Of a stretch of 30,187 nt of DNA, positions 1,832-23,500 are shown one piece after another. The translations under genes were made by a program, and so were the position numbers. Numbering within the stretch: the stretch's first letter is position 1; every line of letters begins with the position of its first letter. Source of the DNA: a virus; IMG/VR virus record IMGVR_UViG_3300049595_000850, positions 1 through 30,187 of that record; one strand, given 5' to 3'. The notes beneath the pieces were generated by a model that was not told where the DNA came from, did not search any database, and saw nothing but the letters and a program-made list of their open reading frames with translations.

Positions 1832-4800
1832 TTATGTCGTTGGTTCTATTCCTAAATCGTAAAGCTCAATTCTCGCCGTTCCTTTTCTGCAATCAAGTTC
1901 GTAACTCATTAACGCCCAATATCGTCCGTTAAACAAGAAACTCCTAAAAGGGTCGATTGGTCTTCGCTCAATCGTTGCTAAAACTCTGTAATTCGTTCGG
2001 CCTTTCAAGTTAGCTAATTCTTGCACGATAATGTCTAGCAAAGGTAACTCTTCAACTCCATCTCTTGTCCAATCCGTAGAAACCGCGTTGTCAAAATCTA
2101 GCAATCTAATTGCCGAAACTGAGTTGCTCGTTATTGCGTCTCCAATGTATGTATTGTAATCGGGATGCACGTTTGCATAAGGTGAGCCAGTAACGGCTTT
2201 AACTCCTAGCTTAGACAAAGATAAGCCATCCGTTTTCTCAATCTTTAAAGATAGATTTTCATACCTTACAACGTATCTGTTAGCCGTTCCTCCGTTGCAA
2301 ATAAGTTGATGCAATCGAATCTCAACCTCACCGTCAACTGGAACTAAAACATTGTTTATTGCAATGCTATTCCAAACAGAGCCAGCCGTAACCGCGAATT
2401 CCATGACAGTACTTGTGCCAGTCCAAGCAAAGGTTGTTGCTCCGCTTCTTGACAAGTATTGGTTTCCAATCTTAATCATAAGTCCAATGGAATGAGCGCC
2501 AGGAGTTATTGCATAACTCGTGCTTACTCTTTCAACCATGTATTGAAAGGTCAAAGAAATAGTATTGGCCGTCTCCTCTGCAATTGTAATTGCTCCTCCA
2601 GTTGTGTTTGTGCTTGCTGAAATCCAAGACAAGTTTGGGTCTGCAATTCCAGCAGTTGTGGTTGTAGTCCATATTTGCACATACTCCCCCCCACCTGAAA
2701 CATATTGCACCAATGCCGTTGCTCCACTTGGAACGCTGCTTGGCTGGTTAGTCGGGATTGCCTTGTGATAATCCCAAAGATTTAATTCATATATATTAGG
2801 GTAAGGAGATGATGGACTATTTAAATTCCACTCCTCAATACCAAATTTAGCATCAAATACCCCGCCTTGGCTATATACGTCTAAAACTCCAAGATTTAGA
2901 TAAGAGTTAAATTCTGTAAAGACTCGTCTAGCCGTCTCTTCAGGAGAGTTAATATCGGCGTTTAAATCGTCGCCGTTTACAATTGTACTTGTTGCCGTTA
3001 AACTTAAATCGGGTAAGAATTCATACATCTTATAAGATAACTTGCCTAACTCGGTCAATCTCACAACATAGAATTGATTTTTCCATAAAAACACTCGACA
3101 AAGGAAAGGGTTAACCATTCTCTCAATCGTATCTTTTAGGTAAAGTTGCTCGTTTTCAATCCTTACTCCGTTGCTAAATTTAGCGTCTTGTCCATCGCTA
3201 AAAATTGCGTTTTGTGGCACGTTAAACTGACGGAAGACGCTTTCGTCAGAATCCATTCTAGCCTCGTGGATTTCGCAACCAATAAAGACTGGTCTTTGCT
3301 CAATAAATGATTGGTTCAAAGCTCCAACAACTGCCGACAAAGCTTGAGTTCTAGGGTCAGGCCAAGAGGTAAAATTTGAGCGTATAGAGTCTAAACCTTT
3401 TAATCCATCAACCGCGGTAAAAGAGAAAAGCTTTGGCCCACTTTTATATGGCGATGTAATAAAGTCAGGAGAAATGTATCCGCTAAAGAAAGAGATAAGA
3501 GCAGTAAAATTATTAACTATTGAGCTGCTATTTTGAGAGCCTCCGACAAATATGTTGTTACCAAAGGAAAAGGTATAGAATGCATCGTTATCCAAAATAT
3601 TTGCCAAATTCAACCAGGTAACTGCATCACTTGAATAATATAAATTATTAATATTAGTTCTAACCCCAACAAAATACCCATTACCATAAGCTAAACCTTG
3701 AAAAGCAAAACCGCCACTTGAAAAAGACCAGGTTATGCCATCTGAACTGTAAGCCGCTCCAGTAGTAAATTTGCCATCTGCAAAAATTAAATTAGCCGAG
3801 CCAAAATTACTATTTGCATTTACATTCCAAGTTATTCCATCATAAGAATAAGAGCTTAAATTTGTTGCTGCTCCAATTGCATTTGCAACCGCAACCCAAA
3901 TTCCATTACCATAAGCTACTCCTGTATAATTTCTTGAGGTAATGTTAGTTGATGTCCAAGTTATTCCATCATTAGAATACATTACCAAATTTGTATCTCC
4001 AGCGGTTTCATAATTTGCGACTGCAACGTATAAACCATTTCCATACCTTACTCTTTCCCATTGTTGATTTGCTGCCGCCGTTCTACTTGTCCAAGTAACA
4101 CCATCGGGAGAGGTGTATGCAAAACCAAGAGTTGTGCCTACAATTGCCCATCCAACTGCAACAAATTGACCATTACCATAGGTAACATCTCTAAAAGCTT
4201 TTCCAAAAGGTAATGTATAGGTATTAGTCCAAGTTATTCCATCAAGTGACGTGTAGGATTTTCCATTGTCAACCGCCACAAATTTACCATTACCAAAGGC
4301 AATGCTTAGGAAATTTAAAGTAAAACCAACTTGAGATATATTCCAATCGGTAATATCATTGTTCGCACTAATTTGATTTAAATCTACTCTCCAAGTCCTA
4401 TTTCCACCAACTAGAAACTCATTAAAATCTCCAGTCTCGCCAGCAATTGTAAAGTCAACCGAGGAGCCTATAATTGTCTCTAATGGGTCATTTCCAGTAT
4501 TACCCCAATTGTAGGTAATATCGTTAATCAGCAAAGGAGTAACCGCGCCTGAATATCCAGCTTTGAGTATTTGCAAGTTCCAAACATTGCCGCCGTAGTT
4601 GGTAGCATACCCCCCCTCGTATTTTAATCCGTAGTCATTTACAGGAGCGTTTTGGCCAGTTAGAATAACATAGCCTTTAACATCCTCACTTGGCATGGTG
4701 TAGCTAAAAGACAAGCTCGAAGACAAGAAAGTATTGCCTGGAGAGCTATACCACATAGCAGTATGGTAACCCGATTCTGGCGCAACTGCAATTGTCAATA

Positions 4801-4900
4801 CATCGCCTTCGGTGTAGAATAGTGAAGGAGCAACGCCGTTAATCGTAATTGTCCCAAGACCTTCTCGAACTGCAAATTGTAATCTGAAATCGTTAGCCAT
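1832..4900 (-). CDS. Large distal tail / tail-tip protein with inserted Asp-box propeller-like domain
   Basis: A 1022-residue protein between tape measure and tail fibre; its start ATG overlaps the tape-measure stop (TAATG). Residues 1-80 look like a small beta-sandwich; residues ~90-175 and ~470-1022 look like one tail-structural protein. Between them, residues ~196-467 hold six repeats of the type YGNGxFVAV ... S-x-DGITW, with Asp-box-like motifs near residues 218, 264, 309, 352, 386 and 423. Asp-box repeats are a hallmark of sialidase/BNR-type beta-propellers. The flanking segments WRVDL and FFSGYISPDF look like two halves of a strand pair that normally adjoin, so the propeller is probably a domain insertion, plausibly for binding surface glycans. 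G7 runs occur at 2686-2692 and 4610-4616. Role in tail tip is inferred from position. Confidence 0.78.
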   Translation of the reverse strand: MANDFRLQFAVREGLGTITINGVAPSLFYTEGDVLTIAVAPESGYHTAMWYSSPGNTFLSSSLSFSYTMPSEDVKGYVILTGQNAPVNDYGLKYEGGYATNYGGNVWNLQILKAGYSGAVTPLLINDITYNWGNTGNDPLETIIGSSVDFTIAGETGDFNEFLVGGNRTWRVDLNQISANNDITDWNISQVGFTLNFLSIAFGNGKFVAVDNGKSYTSLDGITWTNTYTLPFGKAFRDVTYGNGQFVAVGWAIVGTTLGFAYTSPDGVTWTSRTAAANQQWERVRYGNGLYVAVANYETAGDTNLVMYSNDGITWTSTNITSRNYTGVAYGNGIWVAVANAIGAATNLSSYSYDGITWNVNANSNFGSANLIFADGKFTTGAAYSSDGITWSFSSGGFAFQGLAYGNGYFVGVRTNINNLYYSSDAVTWLNLANILDNDAFYTFSFGNNIFVGGSQNSSSIVNNFTALISFFSGYISPDFITSPYKSGPKLFSFTAVDGLKGLDSIRSNFTSWPDPRTQALSAVVGALNQSFIEQRPVFIGCEIHEARMDSDESVFRQFNVPQNAIFSDGQDAKFSNGVRIENEQLYLKDTIERMVNPFLCRVFLWKNQFYVVRLTELGKLSYKMYEFLPDLSLTATSTIVNGDDLNADINSPEETARRVFTEFNSYLNLGVLDVYSQGGVFDAKFGIEEWNLNSPSSPYPNIYELNLWDYHKAIPTNQPSSVPSGATALVQYVSGGGEYVQIWTTTTTAGIADPNLSWISASTNTTGGAITIAEETANTISLTFQYMVERVSTSYAITPGAHSIGLMIKIGNQYLSRSGATTFAWTGTSTVMEFAVTAGSVWNSIAINNVLVPVDGEVEIRLHQLICNGGTANRYVVRYENLSLKIEKTDGLSLSKLGVKAVTGSPYANVHPDYNTYIGDAITSNSVSAIRLLDFDNAVSTDWTRDGVEELPLLDIIVQELANLKGRTNYRVLATIERRPIDPFRSFLFNGRYWALMSYELDCRKGTARIELYDLGIEPTT
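2686..2692 (-). repeat. G7 homopolymer (C7 on plus strand)
   Basis: Seven consecutive G on the coding strand, within codons GGT GGG GGG GAG of the distal tail protein (Gly-Gly-Gly-Glu). One of five coding-strand G runs of seven or more in this AT-rich window. Confidence 0.85.
3827..4244 (-). repeat. Internal DNA repeats of the propeller domain
   Basis: The 16-mer CCAAGTTATTCCATCA (plus strand) occurs exactly at 3827-3842, 3956-3971 and 4229-4244, with diverged copies near 3728, 4098 and 3617. It encodes the DGITW core of the Asp-box repeats. Near-identical copies in register could allow repeat gain or loss by recombination. Confidence 0.8.
4610..4616 (-). repeat. G7 homopolymer (C7 on plus strand)
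   Basis: Seven consecutive G on the coding strand in GAG GGG GGG TAT (Glu-Gly-Gly-Tyr) of the distal tail protein. The flanking TACGA-like context is shared with the G6 run at 450-455 in the fibre gene. Confidence 0.85.
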
Positions 4901-6687
4901 TAGCCTTTATTTATCTTATTGTTTGCTTGTCCTAAAACATAAACCAGGTCTTGACCTCTTACTACAAACTCGCCGCTTACGTCTCTGTTTTGCTCAAATA
5001 AACCTCCTTGGGCGCCACCAGTAAAAGAAGAGCCACCGCCTCCAACACCTGAGGTTCCAACGGACGAACCACCACCGCCTCCACCGCCTCCAATTCCTGA
5101 TGTAATACCTCCTCCGCCTCCGCCTCCGCCAATCTTAGCTCTAATATATCCAGCCAATGCAATCAAAGCAACACCAGCAGCAATCGCCGTGGCTGGATTT
5201 TTAAATGCTAATTTAATTGCAATCATTCCGACACCTACTTTAATAGCCGCTTGTCCCAATCCCTCGGCAATTGTAGCAACTCCACCTAAAAGAGCCTTAC
5301 CAGCTGCCTTTACAACATCGCCTCCAGTAGCTAAAGCCTCACCAATCGCAAAGCCAATATCTCCTAATCCATTAACCGCTCCATTTGTTATAATAGCCGA
5401 AGCTTCAGCGTTAAACTGCTGTAAAGAGGTTATAAACTTAGTTTTTTTAGAGTCGTCAATATCTGCAACTTCAGGCTCTATAACTATACTTTCCGCTAAT
5501 TTATCTAAATCTAATCCAATCGGCATTGGCTTTGCAAGTGATTCGGCCAATGAAATAAATTTGGCATCTAATTCTTTTGCGAGTTTAGTTTGCCTTTCTA
5601 GTAGAAAATTGGCGGTATTCATTTCAGGATTTCCAGCCAAAATTACTTTATTAAGCTTGTCCCATCCTTTGGAATACTCTTCAAACGCTTTAGCTCTTTC
5701 CTCTGCCTTTGTTTCGTCGCTTACTTCGTTAAATTGTTCAACTCCAGCCGCAGCTTCAACCGAGGCTTTCTGAATTCCCTTAATTAATATTGCCTGGCCT
5801 TCTAATTTATTGGCATAAATTGGATTTAAAAGAGAAAGTAATTGCTTGCCAAAAGTTACAAAGCCATTTTCTCCAGTATACTGAGCAACTGTATTTACTG
5901 CGGTTAATGAGGTTACTAATTTGCTGGTTAAACTATTGGCCAAATCTAAAACACCTGAAACCAACCCACTCGAAGAGTTACCAATTGCTAATTGTAATTG
6001 AGTAAAGTTGTCTCCTAAATTGGATATTTTACCGCCTACGGTCTCAGAAATTGCAGCCATTGAGCCTGTAACTCCTTCAGCCTCTCCAAGGCTAATTAAA
6101 TACTCTTGTATAGCTACGTCTGTTTTTTCTACTTCAGTAGTTACACCTTTAAAAGTAAACGCGACGTTATCTCCTTCGGCTTTGGCCCTAACGCCAAATT
6201 CTTTTAAACGCTCAAACTCTCCAGTCATTGCGTCCAAAGTTGCTTCGGCTAATTGGTCAAAAGATTTTCCAGTTGAGGATGCCAAGTCACCTAAAGCCGT
6301 CATTTCTTTAACTGTTGGCGTAAATCCTCGGTTGGCTAATTTTACAAAAGCGTTGGTTAATTCGTCAACCTGGAAAGGAGTTTTTGAAGCAAATTCTACA
6401 ATTTGATTCATTGCAACCTGGGCCGCTGAGCTACTACCTAAAGTATTGGTTAAAACCGCTTCCATTTTTTGGAATTGTGCGGTCGTATCAATTATCGCCT
6501 TTCCAAAACTTAAAACCGCTCCCACAGAAAAAGCAGCTCCCAAAGATGTTAATGCAGTTGAGGAGATTTTTTCAAATTTGCTAAATTCTTTTCCTGACTG
6601 GTCAAGTTTAGAATTTACTTCATTAAACTTTTTATCAAACTCGCTAATTTTAGCGCCTATCTCAACCTCTATTCTTGGATTTGCCAT
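4900..6687 (-). CDS. Tail tape measure protein
   Basis: A 595-residue protein that sets tail length and is threaded in the tail tube lumen. Residues 1-60 are a charged helical segment (EVEIGAKISEFDKKFNEVN); the next ~200 residues resemble tape-measure N-terminal domains with AxxxLG and FxVDELTNAFVKLANRG motifs. Hydrophobic stretches lie near residues 470-515, as usual for tape measures. Residues ~518-550 are glycine-rich and are encoded by alternating GGC/GGA codons rather than a G run. It starts with ATG at 6687, overlapping the frameshifted chaperone by 26 nt, which matches the conserved order chaperones then tape measure. The length suggests a tail of under 100 nm by the usual ~0.15 nm per residue rule (inference). 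Confidence 0.88.
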   Translation of the reverse strand: MANPRIEVEIGAKISEFDKKFNEVNSKLDQSGKEFSKFEKISSTALTSLGAAFSVGAVLSFGKAIIDTTAQFQKMEAVLTNTLGSSSAAQVAMNQIVEFASKTPFQVDELTNAFVKLANRGFTPTVKEMTALGDLASSTGKSFDQLAEATLDAMTGEFERLKEFGVRAKAEGDNVAFTFKGVTTEVEKTDVAIQEYLISLGEAEGVTGSMAAISETVGGKISNLGDNFTQLQLAIGNSSSGLVSGVLDLANSLTSKLVTSLTAVNTVAQYTGENGFVTFGKQLLSLLNPIYANKLEGQAILIKGIQKASVEAAAGVEQFNEVSDETKAEERAKAFEEYSKGWDKLNKVILAGNPEMNTANFLLERQTKLAKELDAKFISLAESLAKPMPIGLDLDKLAESIVIEPEVADIDDSKKTKFITSLQQFNAEASAIITNGAVNGLGDIGFAIGEALATGGDVVKAAGKALLGGVATIAEGLGQAAIKVGVGMIAIKLAFKNPATAIAAGVALIALAGYIRAKIGGGGGGGGITSGIGGGGGGGGSSVGTSGVGGGGSSFTGGAQGGLFEQNRDVSGEFVVRGQDLVYVLGQANNKINKG

Positions 6688-9665: not shown

Positions 9666-10208
9666 TTATTTCATTAAATGTTTTTTCTCATTCCAAGGCT
9701 CAAAATCAGTCCAAGGTCGATAACTATGGAAAACGTAAAGAGAGCGGATTAAACCAATCTTTAAGCCAATCTCTTTAACTCTCATCGAAAACAAAGAATC
9801 AAAAGCCAGGCTATTTTCGGTAAACTTAATTTTCTTCCAGGTCTTGTACTGAAATGCCATAAAGAATCCAGCAATGTACTCTTGGATTTCTTGTACCCCA
9901 CCCCCCCCGTATGACATGGCGATGTTGTAATGATTTCTAATGTTTAAATCGTTACTAAAGGCTTTACCGTGCAATTGGTGCTTTGACCTTAGCCGATTGG
10001 TATAACATCCAACCAAGCCAAATTTGTCTCCATCTAAAGACAAAGCATCGTGTATTCTTTTGCCCCAGTCAGGAGTCAGATACAAAATATCACCGTCTTG
10101 TAAAACAATCCAATCCTCGTCATTTGCATTTATGCTGGCCAAGTATTCGTTGTAGGCTTTGCCAATGTCTTTCTCTAAACTAAAAGGATTTGAGTAAAAT
10201 ATTCTCAT
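9666..10208 (-). CDS. GT-A-fold glycosyltransferase-like protein
   Basis: A 180-residue protein with a nucleotide-sugar binding signature: ANDEDWIVLQDGDILYL, where D38-G-D40 is a DxD motif that would coordinate metal and UDP/GDP-sugar. It lacks the very N-terminal nucleotide-binding strand of full-length GT2 enzymes and is short, so it is a compact or diverged member. It overlaps the preceding glycosyltransferase by 4 nt (ATGA). An unusual G8-T-G4 run (9901-9908 plus downstream) encodes Tyr-Gly-Gly-Gly-Gly-Val near residue 101. Target may be virion proteins or host surface glycans (inference). Confidence 0.75.
   Translation of the reverse strand: MRIFYSNPFSLEKDIGKAYNEYLASINANDEDWIVLQDGDILYLTPDWGKRIHDALSLDGDKFGLVGCYTNRLRSKHQLHGKAFSNDLNIRNHYNIAMSYGGGGVQEIQEYIAGFFMAFQYKTWKKIKFTENSLAFDSLFSMRVKEIGLKIGLIRSLYVFHSYRPWTDFEPWNEKKHLMK
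9901..9908 (-). repeat. G8 homopolymer followed by T-G4
   Basis: Coding strand TAC GGG GGG GGT GGG GTA in a glycosyltransferase gene. The 14-mer GGGGGGGGTGGGGT is repeated exactly in the metallophosphoesterase gene (28859-28872). A one-base slip would truncate the enzyme. Confidence 0.88.
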
Positions 10209-10897
10209 TTGTAGTTTACAAATTCAGGATGTTTTGAGAACTCTTCGTAAAGCTTTAAATTTATTTTACCGCTTTGTCTTCTTTCATTAATTGATAAAGA
10301 CGAATCGACGGCAAAACGCCAATCTAAAACATCAAATAAATCAAGACTATTTTTTACATCCATAAATGGTTTAGGAGTTAATCCTAAGTCATGTATTCTT
10401 TGACTGTATTCGACGTGTTCAAATCCCCACAAGCCAAATTGAGGCCTCATTCCTCCAGCTACCTGAAGACATATATTTTTCAAATAAAGCATACATCCAT
10501 TAGGAGCGGTATATGTCATTAATCCTTTATCTTCTCCAGTAAATCTAATTGAGGGACTATAAATAATGTTATTGCTTTTTTTATCAAAGGTCAAGCACAA
10601 ATGATTGACTTGAGAATTAATGTAAGGCTTAAACCAATCATGTGTTTTTGGTCTTACATCGTCATCACAAAGAAAAATGTGGTCATGTTTGTCCGCTAAT
10701 TCTAAACACTTGTTTTTAGCCTTAGCTATTCCAACATTTTGCTCAAACCGATAATTAGATTTTACAGGTGTTTTGGATGCATCATCAACCACATAAATAG
10801 TAGCATTAATTGGTAAATATTTTTCCCATTCAATTAATGTTTCCTCAAATACTTCTTTTCTATTGTGCGTTGTTAAACAGACTGCAATTGTTTCCAT
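10205..10897 (-). CDS. Family 2 glycosyltransferase
   Basis: A 230-residue GT-A enzyme. The N-terminus AVCLTTHNRKEVF with YVVDDAS is the GT2 nucleotide-sugar site; IFLCDDDV (D78-D80) is the DxD motif; NGCMLYLKN, GGMRPQFGLWGFEHVEYSQR matches the acceptor-side helix with an (E/D)-(D/H) catalytic base region. Cytosolic transfer of a sugar from an activated donor is expected. It overlaps the upstream glycosyltransferase by 25 nt. The DNA is visibly more AT-rich than the neighbouring capsid genes, suggesting separate acquisition. Confidence 0.85.
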   Translation of the reverse strand: METIAVCLTTHNRKEVFEETLIEWEKYLPINATIYVVDDASKTPVKSNYRFEQNVGIAKAKNKCLELADKHDHIFLCDDDVRPKTHDWFKPYINSQVNHLCLTFDKKSNNIIYSPSIRFTGEDKGLMTYTAPNGCMLYLKNICLQVAGGMRPQFGLWGFEHVEYSQRIHDLGLTPKPFMDVKNSLDLFDVLDWRFAVDSSLSINERRQSGKINLKLYEEFSKHPEFVNYK

Positions 10898-12192
10898 TCT
10901 AAGAATTTTGGATGTTCTGAAAATAAAGTTTGATTATATTTTTGATTGAATAATTCTAGCTTAGACCACATTAAATCATTTCTATCACTTATGCTTCTTT
11001 CTTTTAAGGTTTGGCTACCTAAATGATTTACTTTAGCTGAAACAACCAACATTGGAGGCACATTAATTTTCTTTAATTGCTCAACTAATGAATTGTCAGC
11101 AAACCAAAAATCAAAATCCTCATCTAATCCGCCAATCTCTTTATATAATGACCTTTTCATCATAAACGCCCAACCTGATAAATTTCTACCACATTGCCAG
11201 CCTATTTCATTTTCTGTAACATCCTTTTGCCTAAAGTCAGCCATTGCAATAGGACTAACAATAGGATAATCCGCGGCTAATAAACCATGTAGCCAGCCAT
11301 TTTTAAATATCAAATCATTATTACAAAACATTACCCAGGGAGCATTACCACGAACTGCTCCAAAATTTAAAAATTTGTTATAATTAAATTGGGAATGAGG
11401 ATTGTATGTGGCTGCATTTTTATAGAATAAATTAGTCTTCTCTTCTATTACAATACAATTGACTTCCAAACCATTTGCCGACTGAATACAACTATCAATT
11501 GCATTTTGAGTCATTTTTGACCCTAGTTTTGAAGCGTTAGAAATAAAAATTACATCTACAATTGGATTCATACTGGTTTTTCGTTTGTTTCTAATGTTGG
11601 GGATATATTCTTGAGCAACGGTTGTTAAATCGCTATAATCATAATGATAAAGGACTTTATTTATTTTAAACTCAGACTTTAAATGTGGTTTTAAAATCTT
11701 TGCGTAACCAGCGTCCTCCGCTCTTGGTAAACTTGGAAAAGAAACCTTAGTTGAAACTTCTTTTTTTATTACTGGTATGTGATTTGGCAATCTATAATAA
11801 GCCTCCTCAGTATTGTAGTCGTTAGGAAAATCTTTAGAATAGTAACAGATTTTAGGATTGTTGCCATTTAGTGAAACCGAAACCTCAAAGGTTATACAAT
11901 CTGCATTTGAATTAATTGCCTCTAAAATACTTAAAATGTAATCTGACTCAATTCGGTCGTCACAATCTACAAAGGAAATGTATTTTCCACTTGCTAAGCC
12001 TACCATAAGATTTCTCTTATCTCCTAGCATAATGGTTTTGTTATCAATTAAATAAATAATCTCAACCTCTTTTTGTTTATTTGCCTCCAAACTTTCTAAC
12101 TGACCATAAAGCATTTCTAAAGATTTAGGCAAAAAAGTATTTCTCCTTTCAGATACTGAGGGGACTAAAATTGATAATTTAATATCGCTCAT
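10873..12192 (-). CDS. Two-domain family 2 glycosyltransferase
   Basis: A 439-residue protein with two GT-A-like domains. Domain 1 (~1-205) has LSILVPSVSERR, GDKRNLMVGLASGKYISF and VDCDDRIE (DxD at 76-79). Domain 2 (~210-439) has VDVIFISNASK, an FNYNKFLNFGAVRGNAPW segment, MFCNNDLIF (NND in place of DxD), SGWAFMMKRSLYKEIGGLDE and FWFADNSLVEQL, the usual GGLDExFF(x)DxxL acceptor motif. Bifunctional or processive transfer is possible. It is the first glycosyltransferase after the four-cysteine gene (gap 11 nt) and is AT-rich. Confidence 0.85.
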   Translation of the reverse strand: MSDIKLSILVPSVSERRNTFLPKSLEMLYGQLESLEANKQKEVEIIYLIDNKTIMLGDKRNLMVGLASGKYISFVDCDDRIESDYILSILEAINSNADCITFEVSVSLNGNNPKICYYSKDFPNDYNTEEAYYRLPNHIPVIKKEVSTKVSFPSLPRAEDAGYAKILKPHLKSEFKINKVLYHYDYSDLTTVAQEYIPNIRNKRKTSMNPIVDVIFISNASKLGSKMTQNAIDSCIQSANGLEVNCIVIEEKTNLFYKNAATYNPHSQFNYNKFLNFGAVRGNAPWVMFCNNDLIFKNGWLHGLLAADYPIVSPIAMADFRQKDVTENEIGWQCGRNLSGWAFMMKRSLYKEIGGLDEDFDFWFADNSLVEQLKKINVPPMLVVSAKVNHLGSQTLKERSISDRNDLMWSKLELFNQKYNQTLFSEHPKFLEWKQLQSV

Positions 12193-21319: not shown

Positions 21320-22369
21320 TTAAAATGGGGATTTAGTTTCTGTTTCAAACTCAAAATTATTTATTCCCAAATTGGGAAATTTTTCTACTCCTGGAAATTG
21401 ATTGCTTTTAACATTTGCGTTTGCAAAGTAATCGAATCCATCTTTACCAATGTAACGGTTGCGCTTTCTGTTAAAATCAATTGTAATCTCAAAAGGTATT
21501 CCAACCAACTTTTGTTTTTTGATTTTATCTGTCTTTATTATAACCGTTGTATCGTTAGGGTCGGTTGCTCTATTCGGTCGCCAAACGCTTATTGTGTTAT
21601 CGGTTGAATCTGCAAAGGTACCCCCCCCCTTTATTTGGTAGAGACTTGGAGGCGGATAATTGCCGTCTTTCTCTTTTCGTGGCGTGGTTTGGTGCATTAC
21701 CAAATGATAAGAAACATTATTCTTTCGGGTAAAATTAATTCTATCCATCATAAACCGAGAAGCGTACAAATGCTCTTGCTCTCCTGGGGACATCTCATGA
21801 CGGATTTTTATGTATGGGTCAACAATTACCGCGTTAACTCCTCTCTCCCAAACTAGAAACTCAAAGACACTTTCAATCTGTTCTATCCTAAAGTCAGGAA
21901 CTCCGTTTTTTTCAGGGTAAACAAAAAAGAAATTATCCTTTACCAAATCAAAAGCATTTAAATACTCCTCTTCGCTAAGGTCAAAATTCTTGTAAGCTCG
22001 GTCGGTACTCTTTCCAGTTATCGTGTGTATAATGTCATCAAAAAACTCGTCAGGAGGATAATTTTCAGGAGAGAAAAACGCAAACTTCCAACCCTCATTA
22101 ATTGCCTTTAGGACGCAAAGAAAAATAAGGAATTGCGATTTACCTTCGTTGTTGTAACCCGTCCACAAGTTAAACTCTCCTGCCTTCCATGACCACATCT
22201 TATTTTGCAGTCCTCCACTGGTTACTTGGTCAATATCCCTTACATAGGTTTTACTTCCAGCCTCTTTGCCTTTACGAAAATTGTTTAGCATTGACTCGCG
22301 TTGGCCAGCAAATGTCTTAATTGATGCCTCGCAAAAATCTAGGTCGAACTCTTTGTTGTGTTTTTTCAT
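21320..22369 (-). CDS. DnaB/Twinkle-like RecA-fold helicase
   Basis: A 349-residue ATPase. Walker A is GYNNEGKS (71-78), Walker B is VNAVIVDPY (D184), the sensor is VMHQTTPR (H226/Q227) and KGGGTFADSTDN corresponds to the DnaB H4 loop region that binds ssDNA. The N-terminal primase-contact domain of DnaB is absent, as in many phage helicases. A G9 run (21621-21629) encodes the KGGG motif. It overlaps the gene before it by 4 nt and is expected to act with the initiator at 22670. Confidence 0.85.
   Translation of the reverse strand: MKKHNKEFDLDFCEASIKTFAGQRESMLNNFRKGKEAGSKTYVRDIDQVTSGGLQNKMWSWKAGEFNLWTGYNNEGKSQFLIFLCVLKAINEGWKFAFFSPENYPPDEFFDDIIHTITGKSTDRAYKNFDLSEEEYLNAFDLVKDNFFFVYPEKNGVPDFRIEQIESVFEFLVWERGVNAVIVDPYIKIRHEMSPGEQEHLYASRFMMDRINFTRKNNVSYHLVMHQTTPRKEKDGNYPPPSLYQIKGGGTFADSTDNTISVWRPNRATDPNDTTVIIKTDKIKKQKLVGIPFEITIDFNRKRNRYIGKDGFDYFANANVKSNQFPGVEKFPNLGINNFEFETETKSPF
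21621..21629 (-). repeat. G9 homopolymer in helicase gene
   Basis: Coding strand AAG GGG GGG GGT, giving Lys-Gly-Gly-Gly of the putative ssDNA-binding loop. It is the longest G run in the window. Confidence 0.9.
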
Positions 22370-22669: not shown

Positions 22670-23371
22670 TTACCACCAGTTGTCTTCAATTGTTGATTTA
22701 GCGTATTTAGGCTCTTCCTTTTCAGGTATTGGATTGCCTCTTTTTATCCAGTTAACAAAATGCTCTTTAGCGTCTTTCTCATCTACCTTTAACTTTTCTG
22801 TTAATATCATTTCTTGCCTAAAGTCATTTAAGTGATTTCTAACCTGGTCAATTGTAGCCTTATTTTTCATTGCAATTCCTTCTAGCCAAATAGTACTTGT
22901 CCAAAGCTTTCTAAAGATTTCGTTGTGGCTCTCTTCACTTAATACAATTTCTTTTCCTTTCCTTTCCTTTAATTGCATTGCATCCGCATTGCCTTCGCTA
23001 TGCGTTCGCATTGCGTTTGCATCATTGTTTTGATTCCAGCGTTTTTTGGCTGATTCTCTAGCCTTTTCGGAGCGCTCTTCTTTCAATTCCATACGTTTTA
23101 AAAGGCTTTCAGACCAAAAACATTGCTCGTCAATTACAAACAAATCAAAGTCATTAATTAGCTTTTTAACCCTATCCTCTTGCGTTTGCAATGCAAATGC
23201 TATGCTTTTGTAATGCGTTCGCATCCGATAATCGCTTTCGTTTCTTAGCAATTCTATTAAGGCCCAAAATAATCCGTAACCCTCCCATCCTAATTCCATG
23301 CGCAATTGCAAAATCTTAGGGTCATCTTTCGCGTTTGAATCATGCGAAAAGTAATAAGCTTCTTTCTTCAT
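22670..23371 (-). CDS. Lin1244/Lin1753-like replication initiator (DUF4373 type)
   Basis: A 233-residue protein. The N-terminal ~95 residues match the Lin1244 domain: YYFSHDSNAKDDPKILQLRM, then ELGWEGYGLFWALIELLRNE, a winged-helix region found in phage replication initiators. Residues ~95-140 are a charged linker, and ~150-220 resemble the C-terminal helical module (LEGIAMKNKATIDQVRNHLN, FVNWIKRGNP). Two MRTH tetrapeptides come from an identical 12-bp palindrome inside the gene. It is preceded by a promoter and a structured leader RNA. It likely starts phage replication, perhaps binding repeats within its own gene. Confidence 0.85.
   Translation of the reverse strand: MKKEAYYFSHDSNAKDDPKILQLRMELGWEGYGLFWALIELLRNESDYRMRTHYKSIAFALQTQEDRVKKLINDFDLFVIDEQCFWSESLLKRMELKEERSEKARESAKKRWNQNNDANAMRTHSEGNADAMQLKERKGKEIVLSEESHNEIFRKLWTSTIWLEGIAMKNKATIDQVRNHLNDFRQEMILTEKLKVDEKDAKEHFVNWIKRGNPIPEKEEPKYAKSTIEDNWW
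22951..23224 (-). repeat. Iteron-like repeats in initiator gene, candidate replication origin
   Basis: Two copies of ATGCGTTCGCAT, a near palindrome with arms ATGCG/CGCAT, lie at 23000-23011 and 23213-23224. GCATTGC or its complement occurs at 22975, 22986, 23008 and 23188, GCGTTTGC at 23013 and 23182. A purine-rich tract (CTTTTCCTTTCCTTTCCTTT on plus, 22951-22970) adjoins them. Lambda O provides a precedent for iterons inside the initiator gene. Confidence 0.55.
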
Positions 23372-23380
23372 ATTTGTAAA

Positions 23381-23414
23381 TAAAAAAACCCAACTGGTGG
23401 TAGACAGTCGGGTT
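23381..23414 (-). terminator. Intrinsic terminator/attenuator before initiator gene
   Basis: AACCCGACTG (23414-23405) and CAGTTGGGTT (23396-23387) pair over 10 positions, one by G-U, around an 8-nt loop, then a T7 run. It lies 10 nt upstream of the ATG, so transcripts must read through for the replication genes. Confidence 0.85.
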
Positions 23415-23470
23415 CAGGTTAAATTTAACCTATGGAATTATTATAGCTACCACCCTGTAATAATTCGATA
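23381..23470 (-). ncRNA. Structured leader RNA with complementary hairpin loops
   Basis: Between a consensus promoter (23473-23500) and the initiator ATG (23371), the transcript has a 9-bp hairpin (GAATTATTA 23466-23458 / TAATAATTC 23443-23435) with a 14-nt loop, a 16-nt perfect palindrome (23416-23431), and an intrinsic terminator (23381-23414). The loop segment GGTGGTAG (23454-23447) is perfectly complementary to CTACCACC (23403-23396), which forms seven bases of the terminator loop and the first base of its 3' arm. This could be an antiterminator, a kissing-loop or a small RNA. I do not recognise a known riboswitch family. Confidence 0.65.
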
Positions 23471-23472
23471 CA

Positions 23473-23500
23473 CAAATATAAACATTTTGGATTTAACCAA
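23473..23500 (-). promoter_or_regulatory. Promoter for replication operon (TTG-N17-TATATTTG)
   Basis: TTG at 23500-23498 and TATATTTG at 23480-23473, spacing 17 nt, the same as at the major tail and XRE promoters. The predicted start is near 23467. The TTG sits within an inverted pair TTGG-N6-CCAA. Confidence 0.85.

Follow-up and report, generated by a model that had tools for sequence, protein, structure and literature searches.

Directly upstream of the replication genes of a phage, we found a short leader of three hairpins (H1 to H3) in which the loop of the first hairpin (L1) is complementary to the loop of the terminator hairpin (L3), and this loop-loop complementarity is kept by compensatory change, as in a kissing-loop RNA. 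The leader is on the minus strand of the 30,187-base IMG/VR phage contig IMGVR_UViG_3300049595_000850 (analysed over its whole length and called the window below), with a series of small early genes on one side and the replication genes on the other. Based on the sequences compared here, we propose, with a probability of about 0.6, that it is an attenuator in which loop-loop pairing would control read-through into the replication genes. A preliminary description of this DNA had reported a promoter, a 9-bp hairpin, a palindrome and an intrinsic terminator, all of which are present on the minus strand (Table 1). Its placing of the leader at the head of a replication operon also agrees with the genes that follow, which encode a replication initiation protein (Pfam domains Lin1244_N and DUF7833, both above cut-off), then a small protein and then a DnaB-like helicase. 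The start codon of the replication initiation gene is at 23371, about 10 nt after the end of the terminator.

By its helicase, the nearest cultured relative of the window phage is Tenacibaculum phage JQ, and most of the others are Flavobacterium phages. Elsewhere in the window, three consecutive genes that are glycosyltransferase-like by sequence stand within the structural gene region (9666-12192), and short repeats such as ATGCGAACGCA and GCAAACGCA, at low counts, are found inside the replication initiation gene (22990-23200), where they might be part of an origin.

Table 1. Features of the leader and of the genes behind it in the window.
Feature	Position	Strand	Description and basis
Bacteroidota-type promoter-like sequence TTG-N17-TATATTTG (-33/-7)	23473..23500	-	TTG 23500-23498, N17 spacer, TATATTTG 23480-23473; sequence, box also in orthologues
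Predicted leader RNA	23381..23467	-	~85-90 nt, three hairpins and U-run; fold, ends predicted
Hairpin H1	23435..23466	-	9 bp, C.A mismatch, 2 bp; fold and covariation
Loop L1, GGTGGTAG	23447..23454	-	complementary to L3 and covaries with it
Hairpin H2 (palindrome), AGGTTAAATTTAACCT	23416..23431	-	directly adjoins H3; found in 67/67 leaders
Hairpin H3, stem of intrinsic terminator	23386..23415	-	fold alone -15.1 kcal/mol
L3, CTACCACC	23396..23403	-	terminator loop and, with its last C, first base of the terminator 3' arm; perfect 8-bp complement of L1
Terminator U-run	23382..23388	-	sequence; conserved in orthologues
Replication initiation protein gene	22670..23371	-	phrog_2562, E 2.6e-24; directly behind the leader
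DnaB-like helicase gene	21320..22369	-	phrog_239 and phrog_19; same gene run

RNA folding of the window leader gave exactly three hairpins packed into about 80 nt (-28.5 kcal/mol, z = -3.6), with the two inner base pairs of H1 closing a loop of exactly 8 nt. As a bare duplex, L1:L3 comes to about -12.4 kcal/mol, and a nested, non-kissing fold in which the two segments pair is much weaker (-19.1 kcal/mol) than the three hairpins. From sequence and fold, we infer that the promoter fires, that transcription terminates at H3 and where the leader RNA begins and ends. A TAnnTTTG-like box is found at the equivalent position ahead of the leader in orthologues, and promoter, structured leader, intrinsic terminator and start codon follow each other in a fixed order in the window and in these orthologues, which matches an attenuator leader. 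A 49-aa protein encoded upstream of the leader in orthologues often ends inside the leader promoter, overlapping the -33 region; the same protein (e.g., 4779-4928 of locus L107) has a weak resemblance to a helix-turn-helix domain (HTH_28, below cut-off).

The preliminary description had considered the eight-base complementarity of the two loops unlikely to be due to chance and had named loop covariation in homologues as the test. We collected orthologous leaders by fetching from IMG/VR the relatives of both the replication protein and the helicase, and took L1 and L3 each by position and not by best match; the contigs are metagenomic and overlap between searches, so that counts are of distinct sequences and not of phages. 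In nearly all close relatives, the leader is directly before the first replication gene. Across 67 distinct orthologous leaders, the loops covary strongly, through 12 compensated L1/L3 types that include GGTGGTAG/CTACCACC, GGTAGGAG/CTCCTACC, GGTGAGAG/CTCTCACC, GGTCGGAG/CTCCGACC, GGTCGCAG/CTGCGACA, GGCGAGAG/CTCTCGCC and GGAGAGAG/CTCTCTCC. The mean number of Watson-Crick pairs between L1 and L3 is 7.58 of 8 within leaders vs 5.54 across types; the observed pairing sum was reached in 0 of 100,000 permutations. When 23 leaders of one loop class were aligned, the kissing helix was paired in 97.8% of cells, with four of its eight pairs changed on both sides, three invariant and none changed on one side only, and sliding the pairing by one alignment column abolished the signal. 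The most compact example is a pair of leaders (L008 and L139) that differ, from H1 to the U-run, by one compensated pair only (T to A in L1, A to T in L3).

The rest of the structure is maintained as well. All 67 leaders fold into exactly three hairpins, both-side changes are seen at 7/8 of the stem pairs counted in H1 and likewise at 7/8 in H3, and H2 is always there, even if its sequence and loop vary (e.g., GGTT/AACC vs GGTG/CACC). Across leaders, the bare L1:L3 duplex has 7-8 bp and about -10 to -14 kcal/mol. From phage to phage, the loop-matching letters change together in over two dozen versions; some of these loop pairs came from a scanner that requires complementarity, while the covariation test used orthologues aligned by position. 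Scanning for the architecture with strict settings gave 9 real matches vs 0 in shuffled sequence, and with loose settings 51 vs 6, the 51 including repeated sites and some chance matches; among cultured phages, there were 2 real matches vs 0 in three shuffles. Altogether, permutations, slid pairings and shuffled sequence rule out a chance match between the loops.

The same architecture, with unrelated loops, also heads replication or early operons of other phages. A pattern search with the window loops, together with protein searches, led to unrelated phages that share it: a Spirosoma sordidisoli prophage (L076/L101) with a leader before a replication protein and DnaB, the GC-rich phage L083, L088 and L091, all of which were selected for loop sequence and count for the architecture only. 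The first gene behind the leader of L088 encodes an HNH endonuclease. In a clade of 74 loci resembling L070, whose primases are mostly about 50-60% identical, leaders with entirely different loops stand before primase, rep or neighbouring early genes; their pairs are GTAGTGAG/CTCACTAC, GTAGTGAT/ATCACTAC, GTAGAGAG/CTCTCTAC, GTACGAG/CTCGTAC, TGTGGTAG/CTACCACA, GTAGCAT/ATGCTAC, GTAGCAG/CTGCTAC, ATTGCAGC/GCTGCAAT and GTCGCATC/GATGCGAC. A primase gene is downstream of the leader in L182 and L187, and two loci encoding distant rep relatives (L067 and L068) carry GGTCTCAC/GTGAGACC and CGTCTCAC/GTGAGACG. L212 (near 4958) and L213 (near 6848) have a second kissing-loop terminator, TTCGCAC/GTGCGAA, before an HNH endonuclease-like gene, in addition to a TGTGGTAG/CTACCACA leader, so that one genome can hold two orthogonal leaders. 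This second site and the first gene of L088 show that replication genes are not the only ones to follow such a leader.

Cultured phages carry the leader as well. It is found at the head of the replication operon of Flavobacterium phage elemoA (TGAGAGC/GCTCTCA) and before the replication protein of Olleya phage Harreka_1 (GTGGTGG/CCACCAC), while the loop pairs of elemoA_15-3D (GTGAGATG/CATCTCAC) and elemoE (GTGGAGG/CCTCCAC) were read by eye after alignment; the genes behind the leader in elemo phages encode a replication protein and a primase/helicase. In the minimum-energy folds of 15-3D, elemoE and Harreka, H1 is less clean than in the window clade. The architecture scan gave no match in Tenacibaculum phage JQ, three Cellulophaga phages and Flavobacterium phage 11b, the leader used as a DNA similarity query against GenBank phages returned nothing relevant, and when relatives of the Spirosoma and L091 phages were sought by protein, the query contigs were the only matches. 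When GTDB genomes were scanned with the GGTGGTAGC pattern, the Spirosoma sordidisoli locus was the only convincing case; the remaining matches were without the architecture, eight contigs of a Clostridia MAG carrying long simple inverted repeats. These near-identical repeats, with GGTGGTAGCCCGAC...GTCGGGCTACCACC, occur on at least eight contigs of that MAG (RGIG4231; L095, L096, L098-L100, L103-L105) and look like a multi-copy miniature mobile element. Among viral pattern matches, L077, L086, L087 and L092 lacked the architecture and L084 was doubtful.

Leaders and the genes behind them are exchanged separately. Nearly the same leader precedes three unrelated first genes, encoding Lin1244-type, DUF6291 or 'MSGWIKVHRQL' proteins; judging from these arrangements, the leader outlasts the gene behind it, and replication genes are exchanged under a conserved leader. 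The replication proteins of L062, L063 and L064 start with MEGKKSF... and match that of the window only from residue 100 or 140 onward; they appear to be chimeras that combine two types of initiator, with the same leader in front. The loops also change over closely related genes: at least 18 switches of loop type fall on a helicase tree with 40 rows, and the window and L108 have different loops with helicases that are 96% identical. In 14 pairs with flanks 85-98% identical, leaders of different type are 60-82% identical, vs 96% for leaders of the same type with comparable flanks. Three elemo phages that shared one host strain at isolation (elemoA, elemoA_15-3D and elemoE) were also compared: elemoA and elemoA_15-3D share 97.9% identity over 7.5 kb, in which only the leader forms a deep valley (87/129 columns, 67%), and elemoA and elemoE are near-identical on one side and divergent on the other, with the switch at the leader. 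By these comparisons, leaders behave as exchangeable, allele-like types, a hint that recognition takes place not only within one molecule but also between molecules. Selection for different specificities would account for such a pattern, but recombination at the border of a module would leave a similar one.

How may such a leader work? Transcription from the promoter would give an RNA about 85-90 nt long, folded into H1, H2 and the terminator H3; many transcripts would end at H3, before the replication initiation gene. L1 would pair with L3, which leaves the polymerase before the terminator 3' arm, when L1 is already present, so that L1:L3 pairing could delay or distort terminator formation and thereby let the polymerase read on into the replication genes. 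The balance would tip if L1 or L3 were taken up by another partner, for example by a completed leader RNA of matching allele. Both the direction of the L1:L3 effect and any action in trans are predictions. Among the options of the preliminary description, a kissing-loop attenuator fits best, with antitermination as the predicted outcome; a ligand sensor is unsupported because there is no conserved unpaired core, and sensing by the adjacent replication protein, or its autoregulation, is unlikely because unrelated first genes swap under nearly the same leader. The replication genes found downstream of leaders in unrelated phages (L076, L182, L187, elemo and Harreka_1) also speak for the attenuator. 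What speaks against it is that HNH endonuclease genes come first behind the leader of L088 and the second site of L212/L213, and that a purely cis-acting switch leaves the diversification of the loops unexplained. Moreover, according to a rough geometry with idealised helices, full H1 and H3 with a quasi-coaxial 8-bp kissing helix are too strained for the short linkers when H2 is folded; pairing in cis would thus disturb the terminator or need H2 to open, and the model suggests that pairing between two molecules would not be constrained by the linkers.

A second reading does not exclude the attenuator (our confidences in the two overlap), and we regard it as a serious alternative, at clearly under even odds: the terminated leader would be a small RNA that uses L1/L3 to pair with leaders of its own allele while these are being transcribed, and enforces their termination. 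Such an RNA would accumulate with phage copy number, thereby counting genome copies or silencing a co-infecting phage of the same allele, and other alleles would escape. That leaders act like exchangeable alleles on the helicase tree, in the 14 flank pairs and in elemo phages speaks for such feedback, as do the different compensated loop pairs of elemo phages from one host strain and the rough estimate that H2 and the short linkers ease pairing between molecules over pairing within one. On the other side, recombination at module borders could yield the same allele pattern, a terminated RNA with self-pairing loops may be inert, and a prophage immunity like that of P4 or P1 is unlikely here, since no integrase was recognised among the window genes examined. 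More speculatively, and with considerable doubt on our part, these widespread, hypervariable and self-complementary leaders could be the replication compatibility type of a phage, the finished leader shutting operons of the same allele via kissing loops, so that phages sharing a host would diversify their loops, in the way that incompatibility groups have diversified in plasmids.

Loop-loop recognition is known to control replication in plasmids, in the copy-number systems RNAI/RNAII and CopA/CopT and in pT181/pIP501 attenuation, and in the phi29 pRNA a kissing-loop phage RNA serves packaging. The leader resembles the plasmid systems in that loop variants would define compatibility groups, but in plasmids an antisense RNA made from the opposite strand does the regulating, whereas here both loops are in one transcript. 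Phage RNAs offer precedents for feedback in trans. The P4 CI RNA terminates transcription of the P4 replication genes by pairing with its own leader (PMC4825925). A self-complementary leader before phage replication genes is also what we find here, and premature termination, established for P4 (PMC4825925), is predicted for the window; however, processing of a longer leader releases the CI RNA, which pairs with segments on either side of it, whereas in the leader described here, an RNA of ~85-90 nt behind its own putative promoter, the partner of L1 is the very loop of the terminator. IsrK of prophage Gifsy-1 is a terminated phage leader acting in trans on its own operon, a short RNA with its own promoter, an intrinsic terminator and partial read-through into a phage operon (PMC4825925); promoter, terminator and read-through are also predicted here, where action in trans is a possibility, but IsrK pairs with a downstream ORF and not with its own terminator loop, and is a single case without known loop alleles. 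Like the leader, the C4 RNA of P1 and P7 is a small three-stem phage RNA whose specificity loops differ between phages (PMC5320573), but it acts on translation and is cut out by RNase P, and its Rfam model (RF01695) has no gathering-score match in the window or the other loci searched.

The preliminary description had recognised no known family, and at gathering score Rfam indeed has no match in the window or in the representative loci searched. The best sub-threshold match, the trpB ncRNA motif (RF04312), reached 26.9 bits vs a cut-off of 59, with its paired region poorly matched. We found no description of such a leader in the open-licence papers searched, and no arrangement with a terminator loop as partner loop either there or in Rfam. 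We place the leader with phage RNA attenuators and kissing-loop regulators, and as an RNA family it appears to be undescribed.

A third reading, which we consider unlikely, is a stand-alone stable small RNA with host or phage targets, or one that forms a kissing dimer or multimer, the terminator just ending the RNA and insulating the replication genes. Its own promoter-like sequence, terminator and compact fold would suit it, and intermolecular kissing loops join other phage RNAs, GOLLD and ROOL, whose kissing loops are supported by covariation (PMC12286853); these two are several hundred nucleotides long, often near tRNA islands, form cages and have no Rfam match here. Yet in nearly all orthologues ~10 nt separate the end of the leader from the start codon of the first replication gene, a spacing that a free small RNA would not need, and its loops vary freely if they match each other, contrary to what a fixed third target would impose. 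Finally, a DNA-level element (an origin, single-strand initiation hairpins or a recombination site) is very improbable even if it borders a replication initiation gene and replication modules recombine nearby, since the orientation of promoter and U-run is conserved, the first gene switches to unrelated families over an unchanged element, and G-U pairs are found in the stems, being at one terminator position more common than any other standard pair, which argues that the element acts as RNA. These G-U pairs, and the fact that H2 varies as a hairpin with asymmetric loops, also led us to reject a DNA operator or origin palindrome.

Many Bacteroidota phages thus appear to make a short RNA ahead of their replication genes, in which the loop of the first hairpin matches that of the RNA's own stop signal, and the covariation of the loops points to a previously undescribed RNA switch for replication. 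To our knowledge, the timing of replication in Bacteroidota phages is largely unexplored, and the recurrence of the leader in otherwise unrelated phages, including cultured Flavobacterium and Olleya phages, makes the switch testable at once. The many natural compensated loop pairs are ready orthogonal parts for synthetic regulators. With pairing inside one molecule, the leader would amount to an intrinsic terminator with its loop held by another loop upstream; with pairing between molecules, co-infecting phages would have in it a recognition code made of RNA alone, through which they could sense or exclude their own kind.
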